Source: Gemmataceae bacterium
GTDB taxonomy: Bacteria; Planctomycetota; Planctomycetia; Gemmatales; Gemmataceae
Reading direction: 5' to 3'
Assembly: GCA_003136315.1 (NCBI GenBank)
Contig: PLDW01000303.1
Coordinates: 1-47,193, forward strand
Length of the DNA: 47,193 nt
A program made the translations under genes and the position numbers. Under the pieces are notes generated by a model. The model saw only the letters and a list, made by a program, of their open reading frames with translations, made no database searches and had not been told where the DNA came from. This document shows, one piece after another, positions 3,806 to 44,658 of the stretch (the first letter of the stretch is position 1; each line of letters opens with the position of its first letter).

Positions 3806-3957
3806 CCCCCCCTCGGGATTGGGAACGCAGAGTTGACAGCCACGTCAGTTTCCGCTCAGGGGAATAGTCAAGTCATCGCGATCAGGGGTGACAGGAATCG
3901 GGTTGGTGAAGACCCCGGGTCGGCGTGTCCACGATTTTCCGCTGCCCCAAGTGTTGC

Positions 3958-3963
3958 TATAAT
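3958..3963 (+). promoter_or_regulatory. Extended -10 promoter upstream of def
   Basis: TGCTATAATC contains a perfect TATAAT preceded by TGN, an extended -10, 41 nt before the def start. No good -35 is seen. The same ten bases occur upstream of ygiQ at 31552-31561. The stretch 3806-4004 holds no gene. Confidence 0.6.
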
Positions 3964-4004
3964 CTATCAGATCCGACGCTTGCCCTGGTTGAGCCCCTGG
4001 TGCC

Positions 4005-4559
4005 ATGAAGATTGTCAAGTACCCCCATCCCGCGTTGCGGTCTGCTGTCGCCCCTGTCACCATGATCGACAAGGACGTGCAACTGGCCGCCGGGGAGATG
4101 CTCGAACTGATGTACAAACACGACGGACTTGGCCTCGCAGCGCCACAAGTCGCGTTGGGGTTCCAACTTCTGGTGATGAACTTCGAAGGCGACCCGGAGC
4201 AGAAGGAAGCAGAGTTCGTGGCGATCAACCCGGTGATCGTCGAGAGCAAGGGAGCCGCGATCAACGACCGGGAGGGGTGCCTGAGCTTCCCCGGGCTGTA
4301 CCAGAACGTCCGTCGTGCGAAGTCGGTGAAGGTGCAGGCGTATAACCTGAAGGGCGAACTCTACGAGATGACCTGCACCGATCTTCCGGCCCGGGTGTGG
4401 CAGCACGAGATCGACCACCTGAACGGGGTGTTGTTCATCGACAAGATGGGTCCGTTCGGCCGAGACGCGAGTCGGCGGGATCTCGAAAAATTCATCGCGG
4501 ACTTCGCCCAGGCCAAGAAAAAAGGCGAATATCCGAGTGATTTGGAACAGCGGTTGTAG
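4005..4559 (+). CDS. def: Peptide deformylase
   Basis: 184 residues, normal length. All three deformylase motifs are intact: GLGLAAPQ at residues 41-48, EGCLS at 90-94 (metal ligand Cys92) and QHEIDH at 133-138 (His134 and His138 bind the metal, Glu135 is catalytic). The enzyme removes the formyl group from the N-terminal Met of nascent proteins at the ribosome. It is followed by fmt, which puts that formyl group on initiator tRNA, so the pair runs the formylation-deformylation cycle. A TATAAT box 41 nt upstream probably drives the def-fmt-rsmB set. A long inverted repeat separates it from fmt. Confidence 0.97.
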   Translation: MKIVKYPHPALRSAVAPVTMIDKDVQLAAGEMLELMYKHDGLGLAAPQVALGFQLLVMNFEGDPEQKEAEFVAINPVIVESKGAAINDREGCLSFPGLYQNVRRAKSVKVQAYNLKGELYEMTCTDLPARVWQHEIDHLNGVLFIDKMGPFGRDASRRDLEKFIADFAQAKKKGEYPSDLEQRL

Positions 4560-4564
4560 TTTTC

Positions 4565-4661
4565 AGTTTTCAGTTATCAGTTTTCAGCCAGACACTGATA
4601 GCTCGTTTGCCACGATGGCTCCCTCGCTTTTTGTCTGGCTGAAAACTGATAACTGAAAACT
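4565..4661. repeat. Long perfect inverted repeat filling the def-fmt gap
   Basis: The arms are 4565-4594 and 4632-4661, 30 of 30 bases complementary, around a 37-nt loop. Each arm is built from short CAGTTTTCAG/CAGTTATCAG-like units. The right arm ends one base before the fmt start codon, so no normal ribosome binding site is present there and the start would lie at the foot of a very stable hairpin. The AT-rich composition differs from the genes on both sides, which suggests a small palindromic mobile repeat (REP or MITE-like). Confidence 0.85.
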
Positions 4662-4662
4662 C

Positions 4663-5709
4663 ATGCGTTTACTGATGATGGGCACCGGGACATTTGCCGA
4701 ACCGACCTTCGAGGCACTACTGACGGACTTCGGCGGGGATGTCGTTGGGCTTGTCACCCAGCCAGAACGGGATTCGGGGAACAAGCGCGGGTCGACCCGC
4801 CAGACCGGCAAGGGGATGGCGAACATCGCCCGTGCGGCCGGTGTTCCCGTCGCCCAGCCGGAGAGCATTAACACACCCGAAGGGCTCGCCCAACTCCGCG
4901 AGATGCAGCCGGACTTGATGGTCGTCGCGGCCTACGGCCAGATCCTCTCGAAGGACGTGCTTTCGACGCCCACGATTGGCACAATCAACGTCCACGCCTC
5001 GCTTCTGCCGAAATACCGTGGTGCCGCTCCAGTGGCATATGCAATCCTCAATGGCGAGGCGCAGACCGGAGTGACCATTATCAAGGTCACCCCCGGGCTC
5101 GATTCCGGTGATATGATTCTCCAGGAATCGCTCGACATCCTGCCCGACGACACCACTGGCTCTCTCGAAGCCAGGCTCGCAGTACTGGGGGCAAAACTGG
5201 CAGTCGAGGCTGTGCGAAAGTATCAGTTTGGGTTACCGGTTGAGGGTGTGAAGCAGGATCCGGCACTCGTGACAAAAGCCCCAAAGATCAAGAAAGAATT
5301 CGGACTGATCGACTGGACCAAGCCTGCGGAAGCAATCGGACGCCACGTCCGGGCGATGCAACCGTGGCCGACTGCGTACACCTTCCTGCACCGCCCCGAT
5401 AAAGAGCCAATGCGGGTCATCATGAACAAAAGCGGGACATGGGCCGCAATTAGCTGGTCCCCGATCCTTGGACCTCCTCCCGGGACTCCCGGAAGGCCAC
5501 TTCTTCTCCACCTCGGTGCCGGCATGGGTTCTGGAGGAGTTGGCACGCAGCAGGGGCAGCCACGGCTGATGATCAGCTGTATAGGTGGTACTTTGCTCGA
5601 AATCCTCGAACTCCAGCCCGCTGGCAAAAAGCGAATGACAGCGGAGGAGTTCCTCCGCGGCTACCCCATCGTCGAAGGCATGCGATTCGGGCCGGAAAGC
5701 CCCTCATGA
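4663..5709 (+). CDS. fmt: Methionyl-tRNA formyltransferase
   Basis: 348 residues. The N-terminal formyltransferase domain (about 1-190) holds the catalytic triad Asn109, His111 (NVHASLLPKYRGAAP) and Asp150 (GLDSGD). The C-terminal tRNA-binding domain follows from about 210 and ends with the GRVLEILELQP-like segment ILELQPAGKKRM. The enzyme formylates Met on initiator tRNA using 10-formyl-tetrahydrofolate. No Shine-Dalgarno is visible because the gene starts directly after the right arm of a 30-bp inverted repeat; translation may depend on coupling to def or on unfolding of that hairpin. A glycine/proline-rich stretch near residues 270-295 is somewhat longer than usual. The stop overlaps the rsmB start (ATGA). 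Confidence 0.96.
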   Translation: MRLLMMGTGTFAEPTFEALLTDFGGDVVGLVTQPERDSGNKRGSTRQTGKGMANIARAAGVPVAQPESINTPEGLAQLREMQPDLMVVAAYGQILSKDVLSTPTIGTINVHASLLPKYRGAAPVAYAILNGEAQTGVTIIKVTPGLDSGDMILQESLDILPDDTTGSLEARLAVLGAKLAVEAVRKYQFGLPVEGVKQDPALVTKAPKIKKEFGLIDWTKPAEAIGRHVRAMQPWPTAYTFLHRPDKEPMRVIMNKSGTWAAISWSPILGPPPGTPGRPLLLHLGAGMGSGGVGTQQGQPRLMISCIGGTLLEILELQPAGKKRMTAEEFLRGYPIVEGMRFGPESPS

Positions 5710-7280
5710 CGACCGCCCGACAGGCCGCTGCCGACATTCTTGCCCGCTCGCACGCCCGTGCGGGGTTTGCGTCCGAGTTGATCGACGACGAACTCCACCG
5801 GATCTCCCTTTCCGGTCAGGACCGCCGATTTGTGACGCAACTTGTCTTCGGTGTCCTCCGACGCCGGGGGACGCTCGATGCCTTGCTCACACCTTTCATC
5901 CGCACCCCTCTCCATGCGGTGCAAGATCGTGTCTGGGACGTTCTCCATCTCGGGGCGTTTCAGCTCGCGTTTCTGACCCATGTCCCCAAGCACGCGGCGG
6001 TTCACGAGACGGTCGAACTGGCGACCCATGTCGGGAGCCCGCAGGCGAAAGGATTCGTGAATGGTGTCCTGCGAAGGGTCTCCGAACTGGTGACGGATGT
6101 GTTTACCGACCGGCCAGGGGGGGACGGTGTGCCGTTTGACTGGGAACCCAGGAAACCGAACCTCCCTTCCTTACACAGGAAGGAAGGGGGAGAAGGCTCG
6201 GAACCTAACCCCCCAACCCCCTTCCCTAAGAAGGAAGGGGGAGCCGGAGAGCGGTCGAAACCTAACCCCCCGGCCCCCTTCCCCAAGAAGGAAGGGGGAG
6301 ATCGATCAGGTGTCCGGAACCCCTCTCCCCTTGGGGGAGGGGTTGGCGCGGGGTCTTCGATTCTCCCCCGTTACCGGAAGCTCACCCGGGCCGTCTTGCC
6401 CGACTTCGCCACTGACCCGGCAGGCTACCTCAGCGCGGCCTTCTCGTGGCCAAAGTGGCTCGCGGCCCGGTGGCTCGATCGCTATGGGCTGGGCGAATGC
6501 ACCCGGCTCGGGTTTTGGTTCAACAGCCCGCCACCGCTGTGGATTCGGACCAACAAGTTGCACGACGACCGCGAGAACTACCGCCTCCGGCTGGCTGCGG
6601 GGTTGATCGAAACGGCCACCGGGGAACATCCGCAATCGCTCCGACTGATCGAGCACCATTCGATCCGCGACCTGCCCGGGTATGACGAGGGCGACTTCGC
6701 CGTGCAGGATCACTCGTCCCTGCTCGTCTCGTCCGCTGTCGCACCTCAACCGGGGATGCGTGTTCTCGACCTGTGCGCAGCCCCCGGCGGGAAGACCACC
6801 CATCTCGCGGAGTTGATGGACAATCGCGGGTTCGTCACCGCCTGCGACATCGACCAGAAGCGGCTCGACATCGTGACCTCACTCTGCCAGCGGCTGCGGA
6901 TCAAAGGGGTCGAGACAGTGCTCTTGAACGAGAATGACGATCCGCCGGCCGGCCCATTCGACGCAGCCCTGGTGGATGTGCCGTGCAGCAACACGGGGGT
7001 GCTTGGCCGCCGCCCCGAGGTCCGCTGGCGACTCAAGCCGACCGAATTCGAGCACCTGATCCGACTTCAGACAAAGCTCCTGTTCCAGGCAATCGAGCGG
7101 GTGAAGCCAAAGGGTGTGATCGTCTACTCGACGTGCAGTATCGAGCCAGACGAGAACGAGAACGTGGTGAACGCCGTTCGCCGCGGGATCAAGAACTTGA
7201 CCCTGGAGGCCGAGCACCACTCCATCCCCGGGCAACCTGCCGATGGCGGCTACTGGGCCAGGCTCCGCAAACCCGGCTGA
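5706..7280 (+). CDS. rsmB: 16S rRNA m5C967 methyltransferase RsmB with an in-frame repeat insertion
   Basis: 524 residues, about 75 longer than usual. Residues 1-145 are the NusB-like RNA-binding domain (ADILARSHARAG, DRRFVTQLVFGVLRR, KGFVNGVLRR). Residues about 270-520 are the Rossmann methyltransferase: VLDLCAAPGGKT at 353-364 (SAM binding), PCSNTGV with Cys427, and YSTCSIEPDENE with Cys477. These are the two cysteines used by m5C RNA methyltransferases for release and catalysis. Between the domains, at residues about 148-220, lies a proline- and lysine-rich insert encoded by tandem DNA repeats. It keeps the frame and joins the domain linker, so the enzyme is probably active. The start overlaps the fmt stop. 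The def-fmt-rsmB order is common in bacteria. Confidence 0.95.
   Translation: MTTARQAAADILARSHARAGFASELIDDELHRISLSGQDRRFVTQLVFGVLRRRGTLDALLTPFIRTPLHAVQDRVWDVLHLGAFQLAFLTHVPKHAAVHETVELATHVGSPQAKGFVNGVLRRVSELVTDVFTDRPGGDGVPFDWEPRKPNLPSLHRKEGGEGSEPNPPTPFPKKEGGAGERSKPNPPAPFPKKEGGDRSGVRNPSPLGGGVGAGSSILPRYRKLTRAVLPDFATDPAGYLSAAFSWPKWLAARWLDRYGLGECTRLGFWFNSPPPLWIRTNKLHDDRENYRLRLAAGLIETATGEHPQSLRLIEHHSIRDLPGYDEGDFAVQDHSSLLVSSAVAPQPGMRVLDLCAAPGGKTTHLAELMDNRGFVTACDIDQKRLDIVTSLCQRLRIKGVETVLLNENDDPPAGPFDAALVDVPCSNTGVLGRRPEVRWRLKPTEFEHLIRLQTKLLFQAIERVKPKGVIVYSTCSIEPDENENVVNAVRRGIKNLTLEAEHHSIPGQPADGGYWARLRKPG
6155..6344. repeat. Tandem palindromic repeat block inside rsmB
   Basis: Two 42-bp copies lie at 6202-6243 and 6259-6300, differing at only a few bases, and a degraded copy at 6155-6192. 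Each has a CCTAACCCCC head and a CCCCCTTCC...GGAAGGGGG palindrome. A separate hairpin (AACCCCTC...GAGGGGTT) occupies 6318-6344. The block reads in frame as NPP-PFPKKEGG units. It looks like an intergenic-type repeat that inserted in a domain linker. Confidence 0.85.
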
Positions 7281-31601: not shown

Positions 31602-33701
31602 ATGCCCACCTCGCCGCCGAATTCGTCACGCCCCGCCCGGTCAACTGGCCGGATGCCCCTCCCACTCTGGAAAGAGCGGTACGCAGCCCCGTTCGCTCCG
31701 ACAACCGCAGCCGAGATGACCGCGCGGGGATGGGATGCGGTCGATGTCGTGTTTGTCACTGGGGATGCGTACATCGACCATCCGAGTTTCGCGGCCGCGA
31801 TCCTTCATCGCGTTCTGGAGCAGGCTGGGTATCGTGTTGCTATTCTTAGCCAGCCGGATTGGTCTTCATGTGCTGCGTGGCGGCAATTTGGCCGACCTCG
31901 CCTGTTCTTCGCCGTGAGTGCGGGGAACATGGACTCGATGATCAACCACTACACCGCGAGTAAGAAGGTCCGCAACGACGATGCCTACTCCCCTGGTGGG
32001 CGAATCGGGCTCCGGCCCGACCGTGCCACGCTCGTGTACTGTCAGCGGGCAAGAGAGGCGTTCCCTGGCGTCCCGATCATTGCCGGCGGTGTGGAAGCCT
32101 CCCTTCGCCGCCTCAGCCACTACGACTACTGGAGCGATACTGTCAAGCGATCGATCGTTTTGGATGCGAAGGCGGATCTGGTTGCCTACGGGATGGGTGA
32201 GAAGAACATCGTCGAGATCGCCAATCACCTCGCTGCGGGAAAGACCCTGAAGGATCTGCGTCACCTCCGCGGCGTCGCCTATGCTTTGGGGGCCAAGGAG
32301 TCGGAGGCAGTTCGAGTCTCACCGACGGAGTCTGTGGCGGGAGCCGGACCGGAGGGGTTCGGCGTCGCTATCGTCCCCAGCTATGAACAGGTTCGGGACG
32401 ACAAGGTCGCCTTTGCCGAAGCCACCCGGATCATTCATACGAACACCAACCCGTTCAACGCGGTGGCGCTCGTTCAGTTCCACGACCGCCAGGTGGTCGT
32501 CCAAAACCCGCCCGCATTCCCACTGTCGCAAGAGGAGATTGATGCGGTTTACGACCTGCCCTTTACCCGTCGCCCTCACCCATCGTATTCCGAGCCGATT
32601 CCGGCGCACGAGATGATCAAGGATTCGGTCACGATCATGCGGGGGTGTTTCGGTGGCTGTACATTCTGCTCGATCACGGCCCATCAGGGACGGATTATCC
32701 AGAGTCGATCGCAGGAATCGATTTTGCGGGAAGTGGAGAAGTTGGCAGCAGACCCCGATTTCAAGGGCATTATCAGCGATGTCGGTGGTGCCACCGCGAA
32801 CATGTACCAGATGCGCTGTACCCGACCGGAGGTCGAAGCGAAATGCAAGCGACTCTCGTGTGTCCACCCGAGTATCTGTAAGCTGCTCGGAACCGACCAC
32901 GGACCGCTCATCGAGTTGATGAAGGAGGTTCGTCAGCAGGACGGCATCCGGAAGGTTTCGGTCTCCAGCGGCATCCGGATGGATCTGGCCCAACTCTCCC
33001 CGGAGTACGTTGCCGAGTTGGCTGCGCATCACACAGGGGGACGGTTGAAGGTGGCTCCCGAGCACACGAGCCCGACCGTTTTGGAGTTGATGAAGAAGCC
33101 CTCGATCGACAACTTCGGCCTTTTCGCGGACCAGTTCCGGGCCGCCTCCCGCGCAGCGGGTCTGCCCAAGCAGCAGATTGTCCCCTACTTCATTGCCAGC
33201 CACCCCGGCTCGGACCTGGGCGAGATGATCGACCTGGCGCTCTACCTCAAGCGCAACGGTTACCGTCCGGATCAGGTGCAAGACTTCATCCCCGCCCCGT
33301 TCGACATTGCCACGTGCATGTATTACACGGGAATCGACCCGTTCACGAAAAAGCCCGTCAAGATCGCCAAGGGGATGCGAGATAGGAAAATGCAGCGAGC
33401 GCTGATGCAGTTTTTCAAGCCGGAGCACTGGTTCACCGTGCGGGAGGCGCTGATTGAGGCGGGGCGCCAGGATCTGATCGGCGGATGCGAGGGGCTGATA
33501 CCGGCTAACCCACCCAAGGAAGCTCTTGAGGCGAAGCGACGACAGGCTAACGATGCGTTGCGGAGCGACCACTATCACACCGTCGCCAACCCCGCCAAGG
33601 GCGAGGAGCCGGGCGAGCGGGGAGCCGGGCCGCCAAAAACGGGGTATCGTCCGGGCCGGAAGACGCAGCAGCGGCGGCCAGGTAAAAGAAAGAATGGATG
33701 A
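31602..33701 (+). CDS. ygiQ: YgiQ family radical SAM protein (UPF0313)
   Basis: 699 residues. The N-terminal B12-binding-like part (DVVFVTGDAYIDHPSFAAAIL, RPRLFFAVSAGNMDSMINHYTASKK) is followed by the radical SAM motif CFGGCTFC (Cys349, 353, 356) and SITAHQGRIIQSRSQESI. It ends in a C-terminal DUF3362-type region from about residue 565 (DIATCMYYTGIDPF, MRDRKMQRALMQFFKP, DHYHTVANPAKGEEPGER) and a basic tail. The reaction of YgiQ is not established. Its last 400 bases occur again, in diverged form, at 34541, 35783, 37601 and in part at 44335. Starts from the ATG at 31602, 41 nt after a TATAAT. Confidence 0.93.
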   Translation: MPTSPPNSSRPARSTGRMPLPLWKERYAAPFAPTTAAEMTARGWDAVDVVFVTGDAYIDHPSFAAAILHRVLEQAGYRVAILSQPDWSSCAAWRQFGRPRLFFAVSAGNMDSMINHYTASKKVRNDDAYSPGGRIGLRPDRATLVYCQRAREAFPGVPIIAGGVEASLRRLSHYDYWSDTVKRSIVLDAKADLVAYGMGEKNIVEIANHLAAGKTLKDLRHLRGVAYALGAKESEAVRVSPTESVAGAGPEGFGVAIVPSYEQVRDDKVAFAEATRIIHTNTNPFNAVALVQFHDRQVVVQNPPAFPLSQEEIDAVYDLPFTRRPHPSYSEPIPAHEMIKDSVTIMRGCFGGCTFCSITAHQGRIIQSRSQESILREVEKLAADPDFKGIISDVGGATANMYQMRCTRPEVEAKCKRLSCVHPSICKLLGTDHGPLIELMKEVRQQDGIRKVSVSSGIRMDLAQLSPEYVAELAAHHTGGRLKVAPEHTSPTVLELMKKPSIDNFGLFADQFRAASRAAGLPKQQIVPYFIASHPGSDLGEMIDLALYLKRNGYRPDQVQDFIPAPFDIATCMYYTGIDPFTKKPVKIAKGMRDRKMQRALMQFFKPEHWFTVREALIEAGRQDLIGGCEGLIPANPPKEALEAKRRQANDALRSDHYHTVANPAKGEEPGERGAGPPKTGYRPGRKTQQRRPGKRKNG

Positions 33702-33788
33702 TCGAAGAAACGACGTTCTGTACCGCAACCCTGTTGACGGTTCGACGACGCGGGCGAGAGTTTGAAAATCATTGGAGGTTCCTTCGCG

Positions 33789-34505
33789 ATGGGACTGCTC
33801 ACCTCTGCGGCACAGTCGCACCTGTTCCCCGAAACGTTTGTGCCGCCACTCGAAAACGGCGATCGCCTGACGCGTGTTGAGTTCGAGCGACGTTACGCCG
33901 CGATGCCGGAGCACGTCCGAGCCGAACTCGTTGAAGGAGTCGTCATCATGGCTTCACCGGTTCGGCACACCATGCACGGAGCACCACACGCGGATCTGAT
34001 ATCCTGGGCGACATTTTACCGTGCCAGTACACCGGGCGTGCTCGGCGGTGCCGACGCGACGGTCCGGCTCGATCTCGACAACGAACCGCAGCCCGATGTT
34101 TATCTCCTGATCGACCCGGCCCGCGGCGGAAAGGCCAGGATTGATGAAGATGATTACATCAATGGCGCACCGGAGTTCGTCGGCGAAGTGGCCGCCAGCA
34201 CAGTCAGCCACGACCTTGGACCAAAGTTGAATGCCTACCGCCGCAATGGCGTCGGCGAATACCTTGTCTGGCGCGTGCAGGATGCCGCGATCGACTGGTT
34301 CGTTCTCCGTGAAGGCCGCTTCGACCGGTTGCTTCCCGACGCAGACGGCGTCACACGCAGCGTGGTGTTTCCCGGTCTTTGGCTTGACACGGCCGCACTG
34401 CTGAGCGGCGATCTGGTCCGCGTCCACGCCGTTTTGCGCGACGGACTCGCCGACCCGACTCACGCGGCTTTCGTGACTCTTGTGGTGAAGCCAACATCGC
34501 GATGA
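33789..34505 (+). CDS. Uma2-family protein, array copy 1
   Basis: 238 residues from the ATG at 33789; GGAGG lies 10 nt upstream. Uma2 landmarks: GDRLTRVEFERRYAAMPEHVRAELVEGVVIMASPV, LDNEPQPDVYLLI, PEFVGEVAASTVSHDLGPKLNAYRRNGVGEYLVWRV and PGLWLDTAALL. The E-V-(x)4-S-H-D...K core fits the PD-(D/E)XK fold. Its first 170 and last 330 bases are almost identical to the Uma2 gene at 35028, but the middle is strongly different. It follows ygiQ closely (a TTGACG at 33733 may be its -35) and its stop overlaps the ATG of the first orphan ygiQ tail (ATGA). Role unknown. Confidence 0.88.
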   Translation: MGLLTSAAQSHLFPETFVPPLENGDRLTRVEFERRYAAMPEHVRAELVEGVVIMASPVRHTMHGAPHADLISWATFYRASTPGVLGGADATVRLDLDNEPQPDVYLLIDPARGGKARIDEDDYINGAPEFVGEVAASTVSHDLGPKLNAYRRNGVGEYLVWRVQDAAIDWFVLREGRFDRLLPDADGVTRSVVFPGLWLDTAALLSGDLVRVHAVLRDGLADPTHAAFVTLVVKPTSR

Positions 34506-34939
34506 ATGGATTCGGACCTCGTTTGCTCGCTGCGCCACCTGATATCGCCACGTGCATGTACTACACCGGAATCGACCCTTTCACGAAAACGCCCGTCAAG
34601 ATTGCCAGGGGGATGCGAGATAGGAAAATGCAGCGGGCGCAGATGCAGTTCTTCAAGCCGGAGAACTGGTTTACCGTGCGGGAGGCTCTGATCGAGGCGG
34701 GGCGCCAGGATCTGATCGGTGGGTGCAGGGTCTCATTCCAGCCAACCCACCCAAGGAAGCTATTGAGGCGAAGCGACGGCAGGCCAACGAGGCGTTGCGG
34801 GGCGACCACTATCACACGGTCGCCAACCCTGCGAAGGGCGAGGAGCCGGGCGAGTGGGGGAGCCGGGCCGCCAAAAACGGTGTATCGTCCGGGCCGGAAG
34901 ACGCAGCAGCGGCGGCCAGGTAAAAGAAAGAATGGATGA
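34502..34939 (+). pseudogene. Orphan copy B of the ygiQ 3' end (frameshifted)
   Basis: The ATG overlaps the Uma2 stop; after MNGFGPRLLAAPP the frame joins YgiQ at DIATCMYYTGIDPF (34541). A 1-base deletion near 34727 shifts the frame after DLIGGC, and a later change returns it near the tail (PPKTVYRPGRKTQQRR). Most differences from the parent are silent, so the copy was once under protein-level constraint. Similarity continues past the stop into the leader of the next Uma2 gene. Confidence 0.9.
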
Positions 34940-35027
34940 TCGAAGAAATGACGCTCTGTACCGCAACCCTGTTGACGCTTCGACGACACGGGCGATAGTT
35001 TGAGAATCAATAGGAGGTTCCTTCGCG

Positions 35028-35747
35028 ATGGGACTGCTCACATCTGCGGCACAGCCGCACCTGTTCCCCGAAACGTTTGTGCCGCCACTCGAAAACGGCG
35101 ATCGCCTGACGCGTGTTGAGTTCGAGCGACGTTACGCCGCGATGCCGGAGCACGTCCGAGCCGAACTCGTTGAAGGAGTCGTCATCATGGCCTCACCGGT
35201 TCGGTTCACCGTTCACGGACAACCGCACGGTGATCTGATGACCTGGGCCGGAATGTATCGGGTCGGGACTCCGGGCGTCCTCGGCGGCGGCGATGCTACG
35301 ATCCGTCTCGACCTCGATAACGAACCACAGCCTGATGTGTGCCTCCTTATCGACCCGGCCCGCGGCGGGAAGGCCAGGATTGATGAAGATGGTTACATTG
35401 AGGGCGCACCCGAGTTCGTCGCCGAAGTGGCCGCCAGCACAGTCAGCCACGACCTTGGACCAAAGTTGAATGCCTACCGCCGCAATGGCGTCGGCGAATA
35501 CCTTGTCTGGCGCGTGCAGGATGCCGCGATCGACTGGTTCGTTCTCCGTGAAGGCCGCTTCGACCGGTTGCTTCCCGACGCAGACGGCGTCACACGCAGC
35601 GTGGTGTTTCCCGGCCTTTGGCTTGACACGGCCGCGCTACTGACCAGCGATCTGGTCCGCGTCCACGCCGTTTTACGCGACGGGCTCGCCAGCCCGACTC
35701 ACACAGCTTTCCTGACCAGCCTCGCTGTGACGCCAACATCGCGATGA
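35028..35747 (+). CDS. Uma2-family protein, array copy 2
   Basis: 239 residues. Starts MGLLTSAAQPHLFPETF as copy 1 does, with GGAGG upstream. Residues 1-56 and about 130-225 are nearly identical to the 33789 protein; residues about 57-125 differ strongly (FTVHGQPHGDLMTWAGMYRVG against HTMHGAPHADLISWATFYRAS). So the gene is a mosaic, as after gene conversion at both ends or swapping of the middle. The stop overlaps the ATG of orphan tail C. Belongs to the tandem unit (Uma2 plus ygiQ tail) that occurs twice. Confidence 0.88.
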   Translation: MGLLTSAAQPHLFPETFVPPLENGDRLTRVEFERRYAAMPEHVRAELVEGVVIMASPVRFTVHGQPHGDLMTWAGMYRVGTPGVLGGGDATIRLDLDNEPQPDVCLLIDPARGGKARIDEDGYIEGAPEFVAEVAASTVSHDLGPKLNAYRRNGVGEYLVWRVQDAAIDWFVLREGRFDRLLPDADGVTRSVVFPGLWLDTAALLTSDLVRVHAVLRDGLASPTHTAFLTSLAVTPTSR

Positions 35748-36181
35748 ATGGATTCGGACATCGTTTGCTCGCTGCGCCACCTGATATCGCCACCCGCATG
35801 TACTACACCGGGATCGACCCGTTCACAAAAATGCCCGTCAAGATTGCCAGGGGGATGCGGGACCGGAAGATGCAGCGGGTGCTGATGCAGCTCTTCAAAC
35901 CGGAGAATTGGTTCACCGTACGGGAGGCGCTGATCGAGGCAGGACGAGGGGATTTGATCGGGGGCTGTGAGGGGCTCATCCCAGCGAACCCGCCGAAGGA
36001 GGCGATCGAGGCGAGAAGGTGGCAGGCGAACCGAGCAGTGGGTGGCGATGACGACCACTACCATACAGAAGCGAACCCCGTAAAAGGTGAGGAGCCGGGG
36101 GAACGGGGCCGCCGAACCAGTCGTGCTAACGGGGAAAGATGGTGCGCGCGATTTTTGCGGTCACCTGGAACGGGAAGGTGA
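35744..36181 (+). CDS. Orphan copy C of the ygiQ 3' end, open reading frame intact
   Basis: 145 residues. MNGFGHRLLAAPP is followed by DIATRMYYTGIDPFTKMPVK, MRDRKMQRVLMQLFKP, GLIPANPPKEA and DHYHTEANPVKGEEPGERG, the C-terminal DUF3362-like region of YgiQ without the radical SAM domain. Unlike copies B and D the frame is not broken, so a free-standing tail protein could be made, coupled to the Uma2 gene by ATGA overlap. The last 20 codons are not YgiQ-like and run into the convergent gene at 36126. Either a gene fragment on its way to decay or a domain with its own use. Confidence 0.6.
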   Translation: MNGFGHRLLAAPPDIATRMYYTGIDPFTKMPVKIARGMRDRKMQRVLMQLFKPENWFTVREALIEAGRGDLIGGCEGLIPANPPKEAIEARRWQANRAVGGDDDHYHTEANPVKGEEPGERGRRTSRANGERWCARFLRSPGTGR

Positions 36182-37394
36182 CCAGCGTGGCCGGTGCCCA
36201 CACGACCAGGGCGGCCGCGCCCACGAGCGCCTTGAAGAACCCGAACGACTCGAATGTCGGCGGATACCGGCCGGCCGGGTCGAACCAGATTGGCGTTGTC
36301 TGGTCGGTCGGGTGCGCCGCCAGCATCTGCCCGAGTTCGGCTGCGGCCGCGGACTTCTCCGAGAACTTGCCCCACTCGATCTCCAGCAGGGTCGCCGACT
36401 CGCGGCCGGTGGGCTGGACGTAGAGTACGGCGGAATAGTGCCTGCGACTGGCCTTAGCCGAGTTGCTACAGACCTCGCCGCGCAAGACCCGGCCGGTCGT
36501 GTGGCGGAGCACGAACCGATGGTTCCACGCTTTGCGGACCAGCCTGATGACCGGTACGGTGAAGATGGAGAACGAAATGACGCAGAAGGCCACAGCACCG
36601 AAAAGCACACCGGAATTCGGGACGACCACCAGCTCGGGCTGATCCGGTCGATACCAGGTCCGCACCACGCCCCCGACCGGATAGGACAGGTTTTCCTCGG
36701 CGCGGGTGCGGTCGGCGAACCAGTACAAGCCGCGCTGGGTGGTCGGGTGCTCGATTGAGCGGTAAAAGTGTGAGGTGTCGATACCGCACCATTGTTCGCG
36801 GGTGACTCCGCCCGCCTGGTAACGAAGGCGGAGGCGCGGACTGTACCAATCGTTCCCGTGTACCACCTGGTGGGCCACCGCCTTTTCGATCACGGTCGCC
36901 TGGGTCGCCTCGTAGCCGGTCTGGAGCCGGTAATAAGGAAGGAAAACGCCGCTGACGAAGAGCGCCAACAAGAGGTAACAGCACATGATGACCGTGGCGG
37001 TGATGAGCCGGCGGGCCAGTTGCCCCCAGGTCGCCATCGGCGAACTCATGGGACCGGCCGATGCGTGAGTGATCGGGGTCGGCCCATTCTTGGCCGCCGG
37101 CGGCTCGGACGACGGGCCAAGCCGGCGAATTCTTATCCACTCTTCGACGGAATAGTCGTCTGTTGATTGGGCTTGGGCATCGACCAGCTTCCGCTTCTCG
37201 CGTTCACAGCCATTCGCGCAAAACTTGTACCACAGGGCGGCCATGAGCAGAACGCTCACGATGGCGGGTTCTTTTCCCCCGTGAGAAATGATCGACAGGC
37301 GATAGAGGCAGATTGCGACGATGATTATCGCAGGGACAGTGATCCGCATCGGGTCGTCGGCTCCGGCGAGAGCGATAAATAGCTGCCGAAGCAT
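36126..37394 (-). CDS. DUF3592-like membrane protein
   Basis: 422 residues from the ATG at 37394; a TTG at 37514 is possible but less likely. Hydrophobic segments: ITVPAIIIVAICLYRL, AIVSVLLMAALWYKF, LITATVIMCCYLLLALFVSGVFL, GVLFGAVAFCVISFSIF and GAAALVVWAPATLVTF. Between helices 3 and 4 lies a DUF3592-like extracytoplasmic domain: YEATQATVIEKAVAHQV, SPRLRLRYQAGGVTRE, YPVGGVVRTWYRPDQPELVVV. Function unknown. It points against its neighbours and is bracketed by ygiQ tail copies C and D, so it appears to be cargo of the array. Confidence 0.75.
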   Translation of the reverse strand: MLRQLFIALAGADDPMRITVPAIIIVAICLYRLSIISHGGKEPAIVSVLLMAALWYKFCANGCEREKRKLVDAQAQSTDDYSVEEWIRIRRLGPSSEPPAAKNGPTPITHASAGPMSSPMATWGQLARRLITATVIMCCYLLLALFVSGVFLPYYRLQTGYEATQATVIEKAVAHQVVHGNDWYSPRLRLRYQAGGVTREQWCGIDTSHFYRSIEHPTTQRGLYWFADRTRAEENLSYPVGGVVRTWYRPDQPELVVVPNSGVLFGAVAFCVISFSIFTVPVIRLVRKAWNHRFVLRHTTGRVLRGEVCSNSAKASRRHYSAVLYVQPTGRESATLLEIEWGKFSEKSAAAAELGQMLAAHPTDQTTPIWFDPAGRYPPTFESFGFFKALVGAAALVVWAPATLVTFPFQVTAKIARTIFPR

Positions 37395-37600
37395 AGGTCG
37401 GGGAGCACTCCGGGGCAAATCGGGTGTGACCTCTCGGCGTGCCAACAGCAGGAGGGCTCGGGCCTGGTTGGCCCGGTTGACCGGAGGCCCCGAAAACGGT
37501 CTAGCTATGCCCAATCATGTCTGAGCCTCCGGGAAGCATTCGGTGGCGGCCTGCCCGTCGGTTCAGTCGGGAGACCTTGTCCTTCATGCAGATTGCCCCT

Positions 37601-37940
37601 GACATCGCCACCCGCATGTACTACACCGGGATCGACCCGTTCACGAAAAAGCCCGTTAAGGTCGCCAAGGGGATGCGAGATAGGAAAATGCAGCGTGCGC
37701 TGATGCAGTTCTTCAAACCGGAGAACTGGTTCACCGTGCGGGAGGCACTGATTGAGGCGGAGCGTGCGGACCTGATCGGGGATGCGAGGGGCTGATCCCG
37801 GCCCAACCGCCGAAGGAAGCCATCAAGGCACGGCGACGGCAGGCGAACCGGGCGATTAGCAGGGACGAGGACAACGACCACTACCACACCGCCGCAAACC
37901 CGGCCAAAGGAGAGAAGCCCGGCAAGCGAGAAGCCGGGCC
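37601..37940 (+). pseudogene. Orphan copy D of the ygiQ 3' end (frameshifted)
   Basis: Similarity to ygiQ starts at GACATCGCCAC (DIAT), the same codon as copies B and C, and runs DIATRMYYTGIDPFTKKPVKVAKGMRDRK to DLIGDARG, where the frame breaks at about 37790. It continues in another frame as PPKEAIKARRRQAN and DHYHTAANPAKGEKPGKR. The upstream sequence differs from that before B and C. The rest, 37941-38136, shows no gene. Confidence 0.88.
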
Positions 37941-38136
37941 GGTCAAGCCGACGGGCTGCAAATCATTCAGCCAGGTTCACCGTCTCCCGACGACGAGGGA
38001 CTTTCAACAAATGCCACACGCGGCAACAACACGCTACAACAAACAGCCGTAGTTTCCTCTGGCTGGACTGATTCACCAGATCTTTTCGCATCGGCTGGGG
38101 GTCAGTCGCCGCCAGCCGTTCCCGGCCCAGAGTCGG

Positions 38137-41013
38137 TTACTGCCCACCCTTTGCTGCCTTCTCGGCGTCTTTGACTAACTGCTCGATCGCTTCGTCCAGA
38201 AGCCCCTCCATTCCAGGTCCATCGCACTTGCGGCGGATGACGCCGTGGTGGTCGATGAGGAAAAAGGTCGGCCAGCCCTGGACGTTCCAGGCCGTGTAGA
38301 TCGGTCCTTTTTTGGCATCCGGCCCGTCGGTGAACGACCGCCAGGTGATGTTCTTTTTGTCAAGGAGCGGCCTGAGTATCTCGAGGTCCGGGTCTGAGTT
38401 CACACCGACAAGAGCGAACGGCTTACCGGAAAGGCTCTTCACGAGCGACCGCTCGTATGGGTACATGGCCCGCCACGGCCCGCCCCAGTTCGCCCCGAAA
38501 GCAAGGAGGACCACCTTGCCCCGATAGTCCGAGAGCTTGAACTCCTTCCCGTCCAGATCCTTTCCGCAGATCTCGGGCGCCACCTTGCCCACCCGCACGG
38601 TACGGAAGGCGTTCAGCTTGGTCTCCGCGCTTGCCTTCTGCTGAGCCATTTTTTCCGCGCCGAACAGGTCCACGGCCCGGGCCAGAGACTTCTCGGCCTC
38701 GGCAGCGAGTTTGTCGGCATCCTCCGGCCGGCCCTCGAACCAGTCGAGCTGTCCCGAGAGGTTCTGACCGAGCGCGAGCACGGCGAGAGCCTTCACCTTG
38801 GGGGAAGTCGCCATCTCGACGATCCTTTTGAGCGTCTTCTCAGTGTCCGACCCCCCGGAGGCCAGGGTCTTGCAAACCCGCTCAAGAGCGGGGTGATTGG
38901 GATACTTCTCGACGAGCAGGGTCGTTGCCTTTTGGATTGTGGCTTCCACTCCGGGCACGACCCGTTTGCTGGCAACGAACGCAAGCAGGTCGATCACCAG
39001 CGGATCGTTCTCGGCCGCCTCAGCGCGTTTCACCACCGCTGCGAGCAGGGTCGCCGACCACGACACCTGGACTTGCTGAAGTTTGCCGTTTAGCTCGGGC
39101 AGCGGCATGGTGGCGATCAAGGCTGCCACTTTCTCGTCGGCCTTCGCATGACTGCCCGCGATCTGAACGATCAAGAAAAGGGCGTCCGCGGCCACCGGGT
39201 CCTTCGGGTTCTCCTCGGCCAACTGGTAAAACTTGTCGGCATATTCTTTGTGGAGCCCCTGGAACTTCTCGGTCAGTTTGTCCCGATCGGTTCCCTTGGC
39301 GACAGAGAATTCCTTGATGAACTTGAACTGATCGGCCGCGAAGGTCCTGACCAGTTTGTCGCACTTCTCCCGGGCCGTTGGCGGCTTCTTGTCCGGTCCG
39401 GCCTCGTCCGGGTTCTCGAAGAGTTTCGCATCGAGCCTATCGTGGATTTTATACTCGGAAAGCGTACTTTCCATGGTCGGTATACCATCTTGAAAGACAC
39501 TCTCTTTGGTGTGGACCTTTCGCCCATCTCGCTCCTTGTAATCCTTAAAATAGGTCTCCTGAAGCACTTCCTTCCAGTCCTGATCCTCAGCCTTGACCAC
39601 CATTTCACTTTTCACGAGAAGCCAGGATTCCTTGTCGAAATAAAGCGTGATGCTTGGCCGTTTTTCCCGCTCCACCTTGATCGCCTGGGCCATTTTGCCA
39701 TCAACCTTTTTCTCATCGGCCATTGTGAGCTTGAAAGCTTTGTCCGTGAGCAAGGGCACCAAAGTCAATACGTAATGTGCGTAAACTGCGTTGGCTGTGC
39801 CGACTCGCTGCTCATCCATCATTTCGATCGATTGCCCCATTACGAGAATCGATCCACTTTCTCCTTTCCAGATGGTGACAAGGTCGACCTTCGAGCCGCC
39901 GGGCTTGATTGTCATGTCCGAGCGAAAGTAATCTGGTCCCATAAAAGCCCATTCACATTCGTAAGGAATCTTGATTCCTTGGGCAGTGACAACCCCCTCC
40001 TCCTTACAGGTCATTGCCAGGGGTTTACCGTCGGCCTTGGCCCCAATTGCCTCGACGGACTTGGCGACAATCGCACGTCCTTCGGCGGCATCATCTGCCC
40101 GGATGACAGGGGTGGCTGCCTTTGGCTCAGCGTGGCGGACGACCGCCGAGTCGGGGACGACCGGAGGTTGTGGGGTGGGTGGGGCATCGCCCGCAGTGAG
40201 TGCGGCGATCATCGCTCCGCACGCGGTCAGAAGAAGAACCGTCGCGGGGACCAAGGCTTTATAGGTCATCATTCGGCTCGCTTTCGAGGCAAGGGACGCG
40301 ACCCCGGCCGGCACCATGCCGGTCGCGCTGCATCCCAACTTCGCTGCGGACTCCAGAACCCTTCGGGGAACCTCACACGCGACCAGTTGCGGCCCACCAA
40401 GTGCGACCAGCGCCACGCTCGACGGTGCGACCCCACGCTGCGCCAACCGTCTGGCAAGCATCTTCCGGGCAGCGGTGAGCCGACTGGAGAGGGTGCCTTC
40501 CGGAATGCCCAGCGCTGTGGCCACGCTCCGGCGATCGCGTTCCTCCAGGTCGCACGCGACGATCAGATTGCGGAACTTCCCGGGGAGCTTTTGCACCTCG
40601 CCATCAATCATGTCCCGGAGGTCGGCGTCGAGGGCGTCCGGCGTTGTCGGCTCGGGCGGGTCATCAGTCGGATGCTCCCGCCCGGTTCGGCGCAAGTGCG
40701 TGTGCCGGGCGCTCTTGGCGACTCGATATGCGACGCCGTGGAGCCACCCGGCGACCGAACCGGGCGGTGAAACGATCGCTGCCCGGCGTGCCAAGACCAG
40801 GAATGTGGCCTGGTACGCGTCCTCGGCGAGGTGCCAGTCGCGGATGACACGCCGACACACTCCAAACACCATCGTCCCGTGTCGGGCGACGAGCGTGGCG
40901 AAGGCCGACCCATCGCGCTCCGCAACGAATCGGTCGAGCAGTTCGGCATCAGAAGTGCTCACGTTCCCGGTCGCGGCGAGAAAGCCCGAAATCCGTTCGG
41001 CATCTGCGATCAT
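38137..41013 (-). CDS. ECF sigma factor fused through a membrane segment to LolA-like and degenerate thioredoxin-like domains
   Basis: 958 residues. Residues about 20-95 are sigma region 2 (DGSAFATLVARHGTMVFGVCRRVIRD, AEDAYQATFLVLARR) and 140-190 region 4 (RSVATALGIPEGTLSSRL). A helix YKALVPATVLLLTACGAMIAAL (about 250-270) should cross the membrane. Residues about 300-540 look like a LolA-type outer-membrane lipoprotein sorting fold (TLYFDKESWLLVKSE). The end (about 815-945) is TlpA/AhpC-like (GKVVLLAFGANWGGPWRAMYPYERSLVKSL, QGWPTFFLIDHHG). The active site WCxxC is WGGPW at 843-847, so both cysteines are gone. Planctomycetes are known for ECF factors with long C-terminal extensions. It may sense an envelope state and regulate transcription while membrane-bound; inferred. 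No anti-sigma gene is adjacent. Confidence 0.9.
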   Translation of the reverse strand: MIADAERISGFLAATGNVSTSDAELLDRFVAERDGSAFATLVARHGTMVFGVCRRVIRDWHLAEDAYQATFLVLARRAAIVSPPGSVAGWLHGVAYRVAKSARHTHLRRTGREHPTDDPPEPTTPDALDADLRDMIDGEVQKLPGKFRNLIVACDLEERDRRSVATALGIPEGTLSSRLTAARKMLARRLAQRGVAPSSVALVALGGPQLVACEVPRRVLESAAKLGCSATGMVPAGVASLASKASRMMTYKALVPATVLLLTACGAMIAALTAGDAPPTPQPPVVPDSAVVRHAEPKAATPVIRADDAAEGRAIVAKSVEAIGAKADGKPLAMTCKEEGVVTAQGIKIPYECEWAFMGPDYFRSDMTIKPGGSKVDLVTIWKGESGSILVMGQSIEMMDEQRVGTANAVYAHYVLTLVPLLTDKAFKLTMADEKKVDGKMAQAIKVEREKRPSITLYFDKESWLLVKSEMVVKAEDQDWKEVLQETYFKDYKERDGRKVHTKESVFQDGIPTMESTLSEYKIHDRLDAKLFENPDEAGPDKKPPTAREKCDKLVRTFAADQFKFIKEFSVAKGTDRDKLTEKFQGLHKEYADKFYQLAEENPKDPVAADALFLIVQIAGSHAKADEKVAALIATMPLPELNGKLQQVQVSWSATLLAAVVKRAEAAENDPLVIDLLAFVASKRVVPGVEATIQKATTLLVEKYPNHPALERVCKTLASGGSDTEKTLKRIVEMATSPKVKALAVLALGQNLSGQLDWFEGRPEDADKLAAEAEKSLARAVDLFGAEKMAQQKASAETKLNAFRTVRVGKVAPEICGKDLDGKEFKLSDYRGKVVLLAFGANWGGPWRAMYPYERSLVKSLSGKPFALVGVNSDPDLEILRPLLDKKNITWRSFTDGPDAKKGPIYTAWNVQGWPTFFLIDHHGVIRRKCDGPGMEGLLDEAIEQLVKDAEKAAKGGQ

Positions 41014-41358
41014 GTGTGAGATTCCCCGGGAGGCCGGCGTCCAACCGGCTTAGCTAGACTTGCTCCGAGCCAGGCAAAACCATCGGGTATTTGGAAAAAA
41101 AGATTCCGAGTGGGGTCGGTGCCTCCGTGACTCACCCCAGAATTGATGAAGCGGCCCGGCAGATCATATCGCGAGTCAGATCGGCGTGCAACGACGGGTG
41201 GCCCACTGCTAGCAGCGTACCCTAACTGATTTCTTGCATTACTCTTGCTAACACGGCTGACTCAAGCAATGCGCCCACAACGGGGCGCCAGGATCACTCG
41301 AGGTTGGAAGACTTTTCAACCATCCCCTGAATAACCAACTGAACAATCGTCGCCAGAC

Positions 41359-41577
41359 TTGCGGGAGCGGATGGAACCGGGAGTCCCACTGGCTACTGGC
41401 TTCGACAAAGAAGGGAACCTCGTTGGTAAAGACGGGAAGCCCGATCCCAAGATTATGACCGAGACGGAAACACACCTGAACGTGGCGGATGCGAACGGTA
41501 AGAACTTCAAGACGATCCTATCCGCGAAAGCGCAATCCGGCCCGGGGGTCACTCTCATGAAACTGGACTGGCGGTGA
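41359..41577 (+). CDS. Short ORF of unknown function, probably a gene fragment
   Basis: 72 residues, starting from a TTG; an ATG at 41371 is also possible. It reads PGVPLATGFDKEGNLVGKDGKPDPK, then TETETHLNVADANGKNFKTILSAK. Its codon use looks coding, but no start signal is convincing and it begins abruptly, so it may be the 3' end of a lost gene. It stands alone in the 41014-41729 stretch, otherwise empty except for the MarR operator. Confidence 0.35.
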   Translation: MRERMEPGVPLATGFDKEGNLVGKDGKPDPKIMTETETHLNVADANGKNFKTILSAKAQSGPGVTLMKLDWR

Positions 41578-41693
41578 ACAGAATCGTCCAATCGAGTCGC
41601 AGCAGCGTTGCGTGCCGCGGTTTGATCGATTCCACGATCTCATTGTTTTCTCACGAAAATCGGTTCGGCCCCTCAATACAATCTCAGTTCCGA

Positions 41694-41711
41694 TCGTGCG
41701 TATACGCACGA
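41694..41711. promoter_or_regulatory. 18-bp perfect palindrome, probable MarR operator
   Basis: TCGTGCGTATACGCACGA reads the same on both strands. It ends 18 nt before the ATG at 41730. A palindrome of this size directly before a MarR-type gene is where such regulators bind to repress themselves and the neighbouring operon, here the esterase gene. Confidence 0.65.
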
Positions 41712-41729
41712 ACTCTCCCAACGAACACG

Positions 41730-44310
<2,581 letters not shown>

Positions 44311-44334
44311 CTCGGGAGACCGGGGACTCCGTCC

Positions 44335-44460
44335 AACCCCCCCAAGGAAGCGATCGAGGCCAGGAGGCGGCAGGCCAACCGTGCGGTCGGCGAAGACGAG
44401 GACCACTACCACACCGTCGCCAACCCGGCCAAGGGTGAGAATCCCGGAGAGCGGGGACTT
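44335..44460 (+). pseudogene. Orphan copy E of the ygiQ 3' end (short)
   Basis: NPPKEAIEARRRQANRAV and DHYHTVANPAKGENPGERG match the last third of the YgiQ tail (parent bases about 33507-33630). It begins directly after the esterase stop, so this copy is cut shorter at its 5' end than B, C and D. The remaining 44461-44781 shows nothing else I can support. Confidence 0.85.
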
Positions 44461-44658
44461 AATACGCCGTGAGTTGTTCTTAAATTGCAGGGATGGATCA
44501 CGCGATTCCTGCAGAGATAGGCCCAGCCTATGGCTTGACATGGGGCGATTCAGATTAACTTCGGGGCTGTGGCGGGTAAACTGGTCGGTGTGGAAGCCCG
44601 TCTCGCACTCTGGAGGCAGCTGCTATCGCATCTCGGAGTGTCGCGGAAATGAGGGTGA

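Follow-up and report, generated by a model that had tools for sequence, protein, structure and literature searches.

The stretch of DNA analysed here, referred to as the window, is a 47,193-nucleotide contig (PLDW01000303.1) of a Gemmataceae bacterium whose assembly is a 524-contig draft, 92.5% complete. Its subject is ygiQ, which encodes a YgiQ family radical SAM protein, together with a series of extra copies of the 3' end of this gene, here called tails, that separate units of accessory genes downstream of it. The features of this array are as follows (attB and attP being the bacterial and phage attachment sites of an integrase):

31602–33701, + strand: ygiQ, the target gene, frame intact, encoding a 699-aa YgiQ family radical SAM protein (TIGR03904 SAM_YgiQ equivalog, E 1.8e-244)
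33285–33302, + strand: putative left half of attB within ygiQ, TTCATCCCCGCCCCGTTC, assigned by its position and by a pattern as at element ends (match 33285–33320)
33303–33304, + strand: putative crossover dinucleotide GA, the opening bases of the tails, assigned from junction counts and the attP symmetry centre
33303–33701, + strand: tail A, the currently used ygiQ end, ~400 bp
34523–34540, + strand: half-site at the end of unit 1
34541–34939, + strand: tail B, displaced, with a 1-nt deletion relative to A
35765–35782, + strand: half-site at the end of unit 2
35783–36109, + strand: tail C, displaced
37583–37600, + strand: half-site at the end of unit 3, TTCATGCAGATTGCCCCT, symmetric to the tail arm GCATG
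37601–37954, + strand: tail D, displaced, frameshifted
44329–44469, + strand: tail E, called truncated because its first residue is tail residue 66 or 67

That the end of ygiQ recurs at 34541, 35783, 37601 and, shortened, near 44335 had been claimed in an original prediction made from the sequence alone, and these repeats were recovered in two ways. Repeat finding placed the first three in one family (D1, reference 33303) and the shortened copy, at 44335/44400, in families D5 and D3, and a search of the genome with its own ygiQ end gave matches at 34544, 35786, 37602 and 44329, with DNA identities of 92, 78, 82 and 77% and E-values of 7e-182, 9e-68, 2e-90 and 1e-19, respectively. Tails B, C and D begin at the identical base, with GAYATYGCCAC, so the common start at the DIAT codon, also proposed at the outset, stands. 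The three window units measure 1238, 1242 and 1818 bp, the distance from tail D to tail E is 6.7 kb, and further scraps of tail lie on contigs C24, C410 and C385 of the same genome.

A common breakpoint in ygiQ

Of 95 genomes in the family, 85 matched a 132-aa YgiQ tail query, and 24 of these gave at least two matches (a single match may cover just part of a tail). The 85 loci were fetched and yielded 57 extra tail traces from 25 genomes, all on the ygiQ strand. A piece beginning at tail residue 1–3 was found in 33 of the 57, with the codon GAYATYGC at the common start, and the remaining traces were eroded. No extra tail in these loci reached upstream of the breakpoint, and the N-terminal part of ygiQ (N-part, 567 aa) matched the gene itself only. 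The largest numbers of traces 3' of a single ygiQ were seven (G006) and six (G088). An artefact of assembly or binning, caused by repeats in draft genomes, might be suspected given the fragmented window assembly; extra tails are, however, also present in assemblies with three contigs or fewer (G088, G012, G075, G027 and G010), and the copies differ at many silent sites, which makes such an artefact hardly credible.

Class-wide, among 397 genomes searched with a shorter query, at least two matches were also found in a second family, f3 (G126, G129, G165, G194, G200 and G218), and in one genome of family f6 (G294). Three extra-tail junctions of f3 were read (G165, G126 and G200), and all three start at GACATCGC. 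The junctions of G200 and G039 match to either side, and the match takes in the 3' end of the Septu gene ptuB; with 47 bp of cargo next to the end of a contig, it places one unit end at one site in two families.

Upstream of the junctions no relation to ygiQ was seen apart from a half-site. In column counts over 25 of the 29 junction rows (omitting L050, L113, L096 and L102), T was found at −18 in 17, T at −17 in 16 and C at −5 in 21 junctions, followed by G at +1 in 23 and A at +2 in 24; ygiQ itself carries TTCAT at −18 to −14 and C at −5. The motif TT at −18/−17, AT at −15/−14 and C at −5 scored 76 over 25 of the 29 junctions (here omitting L073 and window C, which are near copies, L050 and L102), compared to a null mean of 25.4 (sd 4.5) with 76 reached in 0 of 5000 draws, a score that is descriptive since the motif was picked on the very junctions scored. 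The 20 columns adjoining the junction hold 6.6 bits of information, versus 2.1–4.1 bits in the outer 20-column blocks. This pattern fits a serine-integrase site with a putative 2-bp crossover at GA, and the half-site with GA, common to most of the 25 junctions counted, is a candidate for the recombinase core site to be sought at the breakpoint.

One 18-base end, CGTTTGYTCGCTGCGCCA (window 34520–34537), stands at junctions both in the window, where the cargo is a Uma2 gene, and in G006, a member of another genus, where the cargo is a peptidase M78-type protein. Exact copies number four in the 95 genomes, three of them at junctions. The fourth (G025:C168) was rejected as a junction, as there is no ygiQ tail within the adjoining 80 bases, and is probably a chance occurrence.

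A large serine recombinase, swapped gene ends and two kinds of carrier

A recombinase was predicted from the site pattern before one was searched for. A PF07508 search of 15 chosen genomes, 13 of which had a match, uncovered two open reading frames (ORFs) encoding a large serine recombinase (LSR) just inside the element end and adjoining displaced tails, in G023 and G015; the same LSR lies beside a tail in G090, in G014 and in G043, where it is interrupted by the contig end. Both LSR domains, PF00239 and PF07508, are present (L068, 3203–4849). At an identity of at least 87% this LSR occurs in 5 of 102 genomes of the order, beside a tail in all five; every further match with an E-value up to 1e-40 is 32–44% identical. 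In G089, of the window's genus, the final 40 residues of the LSR (80% identical; L111, 3870–3989) remain 1.1 kb downstream of ygiQ, apparently as the trace of an eroded element. Beyond the five LSRs and this remnant, the searched loci gave only a chance-level match in L124 (E 0.57, 29% identity). The next best LSR match (G011:C1:4827100–4828620, 40% identical) lies ~40 kb downstream of ygiQ, in a 4.5-kb locus with no ygiQ tail. With regard to tyrosine integrases, no Phage_integrase was found inside the arrays among the matches listed for 8 genomes (E to about 1e-10; array coordinates checked in G088, G006, G012, G010, G027 and the G023 insert; attC sites not searched), and recombinases other than LSRs were looked for only among the cargo proteins scanned with Pfam. 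The original statement that no integrase is in sight therefore holds for the window, where there is no LSR, but not for its relatives, where an LSR adjoins displaced tails and a 59% identical one is found on a phage contig (described below).

The gene yebC served as a marker of position: it starts 91 bp (G027) and 122 bp (G072) past the own tail of ygiQ, with additional tail traces past yebC in G027. It follows a displaced tail in G039, G075, G006 and G023 and a weaker one in G009, G010 and G032, and is more distant in G012, G011 and G093. In G023 the displaced tail and then yebC lie 88 kb from ygiQ. Measured against its five closest relatives that lack P-type tails, the displaced tail of G023 is 0.79–0.88 identical and its N-part 0.84–0.85, versus 0.61–0.70 for the attached tail; with G015 included, the ranges are 0.79–0.89, 0.83–0.86 and 0.61–0.72, respectively. 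Judging from these identities, the ygiQ end clearly appears to have been swapped in both genomes. Over 50 pairs with an N-part identity of at least 0.85, the tail identity minus the N-part identity averaged −0.018 where neither tail has a P-type arm (40 pairs) and −0.135 where one does (6 pairs).

The 88-kb insert at ygiQ in G023 (G023:C2, about 1379000–1466500; L061, L075, L116–L118, L062) looks plasmid-like and is perhaps mobilizable. Of its 67 ORFs of at least 110 aa, 49 were scanned, and the families listed (the best 25 of 52 Pfam and 25 of 42 PHROGs families) include a replication initiator (RepA), a TrwC relaxase, ParB-like and metal-efflux-type proteins, a sulfate permease and a carbonic anhydrase, with no virion family among them.

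The second carrier is a phage contig from IMG/VR (IMGVR_UViG_3300044998_001357, G397; 148,783 bp), which encodes the 59% identical LSR with a ygiQ end alongside. Only YgiQ residues 565–692 are present on it, and the attP arms are AAAGTGTC and GACACTTT, centred on GA. We read this tail as an attP and not as a prophage end because it is internal to the contig and has a P-type arm; the contig may be a fragment. Pfam scanning of 28 of its 135 longer ORFs identified terminase, portal and capsid proteins, and PHROGs scanning of 52 other ORFs a DNA polymerase, helicase, primase and ribonucleotide reductase. In the five attP compared, four of them inferred by joining flanks, 10–12 of 20 positions are symmetric about GA, which is the best centre in all five.

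The contig came up through its LSR: scanning virus sequences with the window tail yielded no relative that could be confirmed, and two more virus scans gave this contig only. Among known phages, LSR matches were found in 33 records, all below 60% identity, with 42.9% the best among the matches listed and none covering 80%; YgiQ-tail matches were found in 31 plasmid records, again all below 60% identity. Gut phage records with YgiQ matches were set aside as unrelated, since the three inspected of ten all hold most of the ygiQ N-part.

Insertion mechanism, small units and rival explanations

The common breakpoint, the LSR at the element end, the gene ends exchanged in G023 and G015 and, on the phage contig, an attP adjoining a ygiQ end are all observed, and the last three together make ygiQ look like an attB at which serine integrases insert phages as well as plasmid-like elements. 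We therefore consider it probable, with considerable confidence, that ygiQ is the attB of a clade of LSRs and that the arrays arise by repeated site-specific insertion, each event bringing a new ygiQ end. The attB would lie about 400 bp ahead of the stop codon, and crossover would take place at GA in GACATCGC, within the D codon of DIAT. An incoming circle would carry a matching attP and, behind it, a ygiQ end of its own, so that upon crossover ygiQ would gain a new end and the old end would come to lie beyond the insert. The gene would remain intact, and many of the tails would restore a site resembling attB, permitting insertion to repeat and leaving the displaced ends as marks of the layers of the array. 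Catalysis by the LSR, the exact crossover base and the direction of insertion in the window are deduced from these patterns, and the small units without an LSR, including those of the window, would have been inserted in trans, through an LSR of this clade that a phage or a larger element provides. The earlier proposal of repeated integration at a defined breakpoint with a new ygiQ end is accordingly supported as such, the mode of insertion of the small units being the part that we infer; its order is also clarified, in that the new end joins ygiQ and older ends are pushed outward.

A number of observations weigh against this mechanism. At E-values up to 1 the window array shows no trace of an LSR, there is no PF07508 match inside the G088 or G006 arrays, and the sole LSR match in the window genome, at its 92.5% completeness, is 36% identical. 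The ygiQ gene and the LSR-side tail share a contig in G023 only, lying on different contigs in G015, G090 and G043, and the G014 contig with the LSR and a tail has no detectable ygiQ N-part. The displaced tail of G043 is no closer to the relatives than the attached one and that of G090 only weakly closer, and a fall in identity at the boundary is seen as well when both tails of a pair are P-type (−0.084, 4 pairs). Eight rebuilt small-unit sites are symmetric at only 5–10 of 20 positions, GA ranks alone as best centre in just one of them, and the G023 insert also encodes an invertase-like and an integrase-like protein.

Further points on that side agree with local tandem duplication, by which the ygiQ end and its neighbours would have been duplicated in place and the extra ends would be decaying pseudogene pieces. 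Tails A–D form one group in the tail tree (support 96/89), window units A and B (tail plus Uma2) are homologous over their full length, as two versions of one Uma2 unit, and the tree pairs tails of G006, G012, G039, G044 and G088 with the ygiQ tail of their own locus, a result that duplication or conversion could also yield. In addition, the ratio of nonsynonymous to synonymous rates (dN/dS) is high in G044 (0.40) and in one G088 pair, x81502–x104404 (0.51).

The substitution pattern argues otherwise for most tails. As was noted originally, the copies differ mainly at silent positions, with synonymous versus nonsynonymous differences of 23 and 7 (A–B), 45.5 and 15.5 (A–C) and 25 and 18 (A–D), as opposed to the ~3 nonsynonymous changes per synonymous one expected of a neutral dead branch; in G012 the nonsynonymous to synonymous count is 2:17. 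The corresponding dN/dS values are 0.07, 0.04 (at a saturated dS near 2) and 0.16, over 94–99 codons (B–C and B–D were not used, being out of frame through B's deletion), and those of the other tail pairs lie between 0.00 (36 codons) and 0.51. With differences mainly silent in most of the tails compared, these appear to be formerly working gene ends, and evolution of both sides mostly as working ends is a poor fit to passive decay after local duplication. Moreover, the cargo varies from unit to unit, a second family of the class has the same breakpoint at three junctions and some ends are swapped. Altogether, local duplication seems very unlikely.

The tree also bears on the donors of the tails. 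Different relatives had been suggested as their source, but the grouping of A–D indicates that the donors were close relatives and not widely different. Even so, the dS of A–C (1.98) comes near that between A and the ygiQ of G092 of the same genus (2.43), both saturated. The two Uma2 genes differ at a dS of 0.20 and their tails at 0.45. The tree comprised 63 tails, 21 of them displaced, with a bootstrap that had not settled and 30 of 60 inner forks open, and displaced tails were not clearly clustered in it as a group (43 of 500 shuffles as low).

The cargo genes of the window, which match those originally named, were identified by Pfam, apart from the second Uma2, which was assigned by homology:

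33762–34505, + strand: Uma2 protein (putative restriction endonuclease family), unit 1 (PF05685, E 2.6e-25); also candidate defence gene PDC-S03 (PADLOC, E 1.3e-11)
35028–35747, + strand: second Uma2, unit 2, an ORF assigned by homology to unit 1 (D2, 89%)
36126–37514, − strand: DUF3592 protein, 462 aa, unit 3 (PF12158, E 3.5e-7)
38137–41013, − strand: sigma-70/redoxin fusion protein, in the interval between tails D and E (Pfam scan)
41612–42280, + strand: MarR-type regulator (Pfam scan)
42277–44310, + strand: esterase, two matched stretches (PF00756, E 2.6e-52)

Across the relatives we listed 17 small units, a selection of our own that leaves out the larger G088 intervals (73.5 and 17.6 kb). 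They span 1.2–4.8 kb, hold one to four ORFs of at least 90 aa (by a simple ORF caller) and show no LSR; one of them, that of yebC in G039, may be native. The annotation of cargo in the G088 and G006 arrays covers a minority of the proteins. In G039, Septu (PtuA/PtuB) and Lamassu (LmuA/LmuB) occupy separate units with yebC in between, the ptuA–ptuB unit ending 18 bp and the lmuA–lmuB unit, with a 97-aa ORF, 79 bp short of the next tail. Cargo in G029 comprises deaminase-like and RES-domain proteins, and that in G019 a LexA-type/PRiA4 protein and a 2OG-Fe(II) oxygenase, with related oxygenases in G025, in G088 (twice) and on contig C24 of the window genome (G000). The C24 oxygenase is 80–82% identical to those of G019 and G025, of another genus, versus 60–61% to that of G088 of the same genus, and this closer similarity suggests transfer.

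The C24 unit itself (G000:C24:18394–22490, L058), LexA-type/2OG-oxygenase-like, lies between eroded ygiQ tails on a contig different from that of ygiQ. In G044 (L052, reversed coordinates 2776–6027) a protein kinase with many TPR repeats and a 221-aa protein lie between two ygiQ tails. In G088, a block of ORFs lies between displaced tails at 7608119 and 7590515 (G088:C1, L042/L043); from reading their sequences we take these to be HypA/HypB-like, hydrogenase-protease-like and NuoF-like, in which case an entire metabolic cluster may be carried as cargo.

How such small units arrive admits of two further explanations. If homologous recombination alone were at work, tail-plus-cargo circles or pieces, freed by recombination between 400-bp tails, would enter the ygiQ tail of another cell by ordinary crossover, and units already formed would require no recombinase. 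Neighbouring tails are indeed direct repeats of up to ~400 bp, the small units have no LSR and tails of the same genome are often alike. Homologous recombination, however, generates no new cargo junctions, and unrelated cargoes that end at one base with a common half-site call for a site-specific step whenever a new cargo joins; as the sole process it seems rather unlikely. Alternatively, each unit could be the relic of a full LSR element that has since lost its recombinase. The remnant in G089 and the erosion of many tails agree with this, but no other LSR trace above chance level was found in the searched loci even at E up to 1, and some units are complete, compact systems (Septu and Lamassu) that end 18 and 79 bp from the next tail, leaving the relic explanation somewhat doubtful as a general account. 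Relics and homologous recombination may both contribute to the small units.

Integrons gather compact cassettes that lack a recombinase of their own at one anchor, with their sites in one orientation, by means of a tyrosine integrase and attC sites. The units at ygiQ are likewise compact, of one to a few genes, apparently recombinase-free, at one anchor and in one orientation; they differ in using a gene end as the recombination site and in a chemistry that would be serine instead of tyrosine. Within the preferred scheme of site-specific insertion at ygiQ, it is tentatively conceivable that these arrays are a serine-recombinase counterpart of integrons, in which recombinase-free cassettes of one to four genes, each with an att half-site at one end and a functional ygiQ end at the other, are gathered serially by LSRs acting in trans. 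As an equally tentative part of this possibility, the phages and plasmid-like elements that supply the LSR would use the same site, and some cassettes would be defence systems.

Replacement of gene ends by integrating elements is exemplified by e14 and phage 21 in icd. The attP of gene-targeting islands and prophages usually carries the replacement gene end (PMC10111431), and Islander takes the displaced piece of the gene as the distal boundary of an island (PMC4383910). The ygiQ elements resemble these in that attP supplies an end of its own, the target gene stays whole and a displaced fragment lies at the far end, and differ in the target, in a replacement of ~400 bp, in up to seven extra tail traces and in many units in which no LSR was found. 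ECC/SCC elements insert at the 3' region of rlmH through ccr LSRs (PMC6222049), and share with the present case the LSR, a conserved gene end as attB, dyad-symmetric att sites and remnants at the site. They have a ccrAB pair where we find a single LSR, and repeats of ~50 bp where the tail is ~400 bp; small units of 1–5 kb, and a phage that has both the ygiQ end and a related LSR, further set the ygiQ system apart. It is not an SCC/ECC element in the sense of ccr genes and insertion at rlmH, as its target is ygiQ and it has one LSR ORF, though no search was aimed at ccr. Sequence marks of serine-integrase islands are found here, namely an LSR at the element end (five genomes), a quasi-palindromic attP and a replacement end, except that the window units hold no LSR. 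Our literature search, which did not extend to the target tables of island surveys, found no description linking ygiQ to integration. With ECC/SCC elements and attP sites with replacement ends already known, the kind of system is known, and what looks new is the target, the depth of the array and the small LSR-less layers.

To summarize, these data identify an integration hotspot in Planctomycetes together with its candidate recombinase, attP and attB. As the displaced ends are hundreds of bases long, they record the order of insertion and the donor lineage beyond what short repeats allow. The LSR and its natural attB could become a genetic tool in these bacteria, and, if movement in trans is true, the ygiQ arrays would constitute a second, chemically different route to gene-cassette arrays, with defence systems, Septu and Lamassu among them, as part of the cargo.

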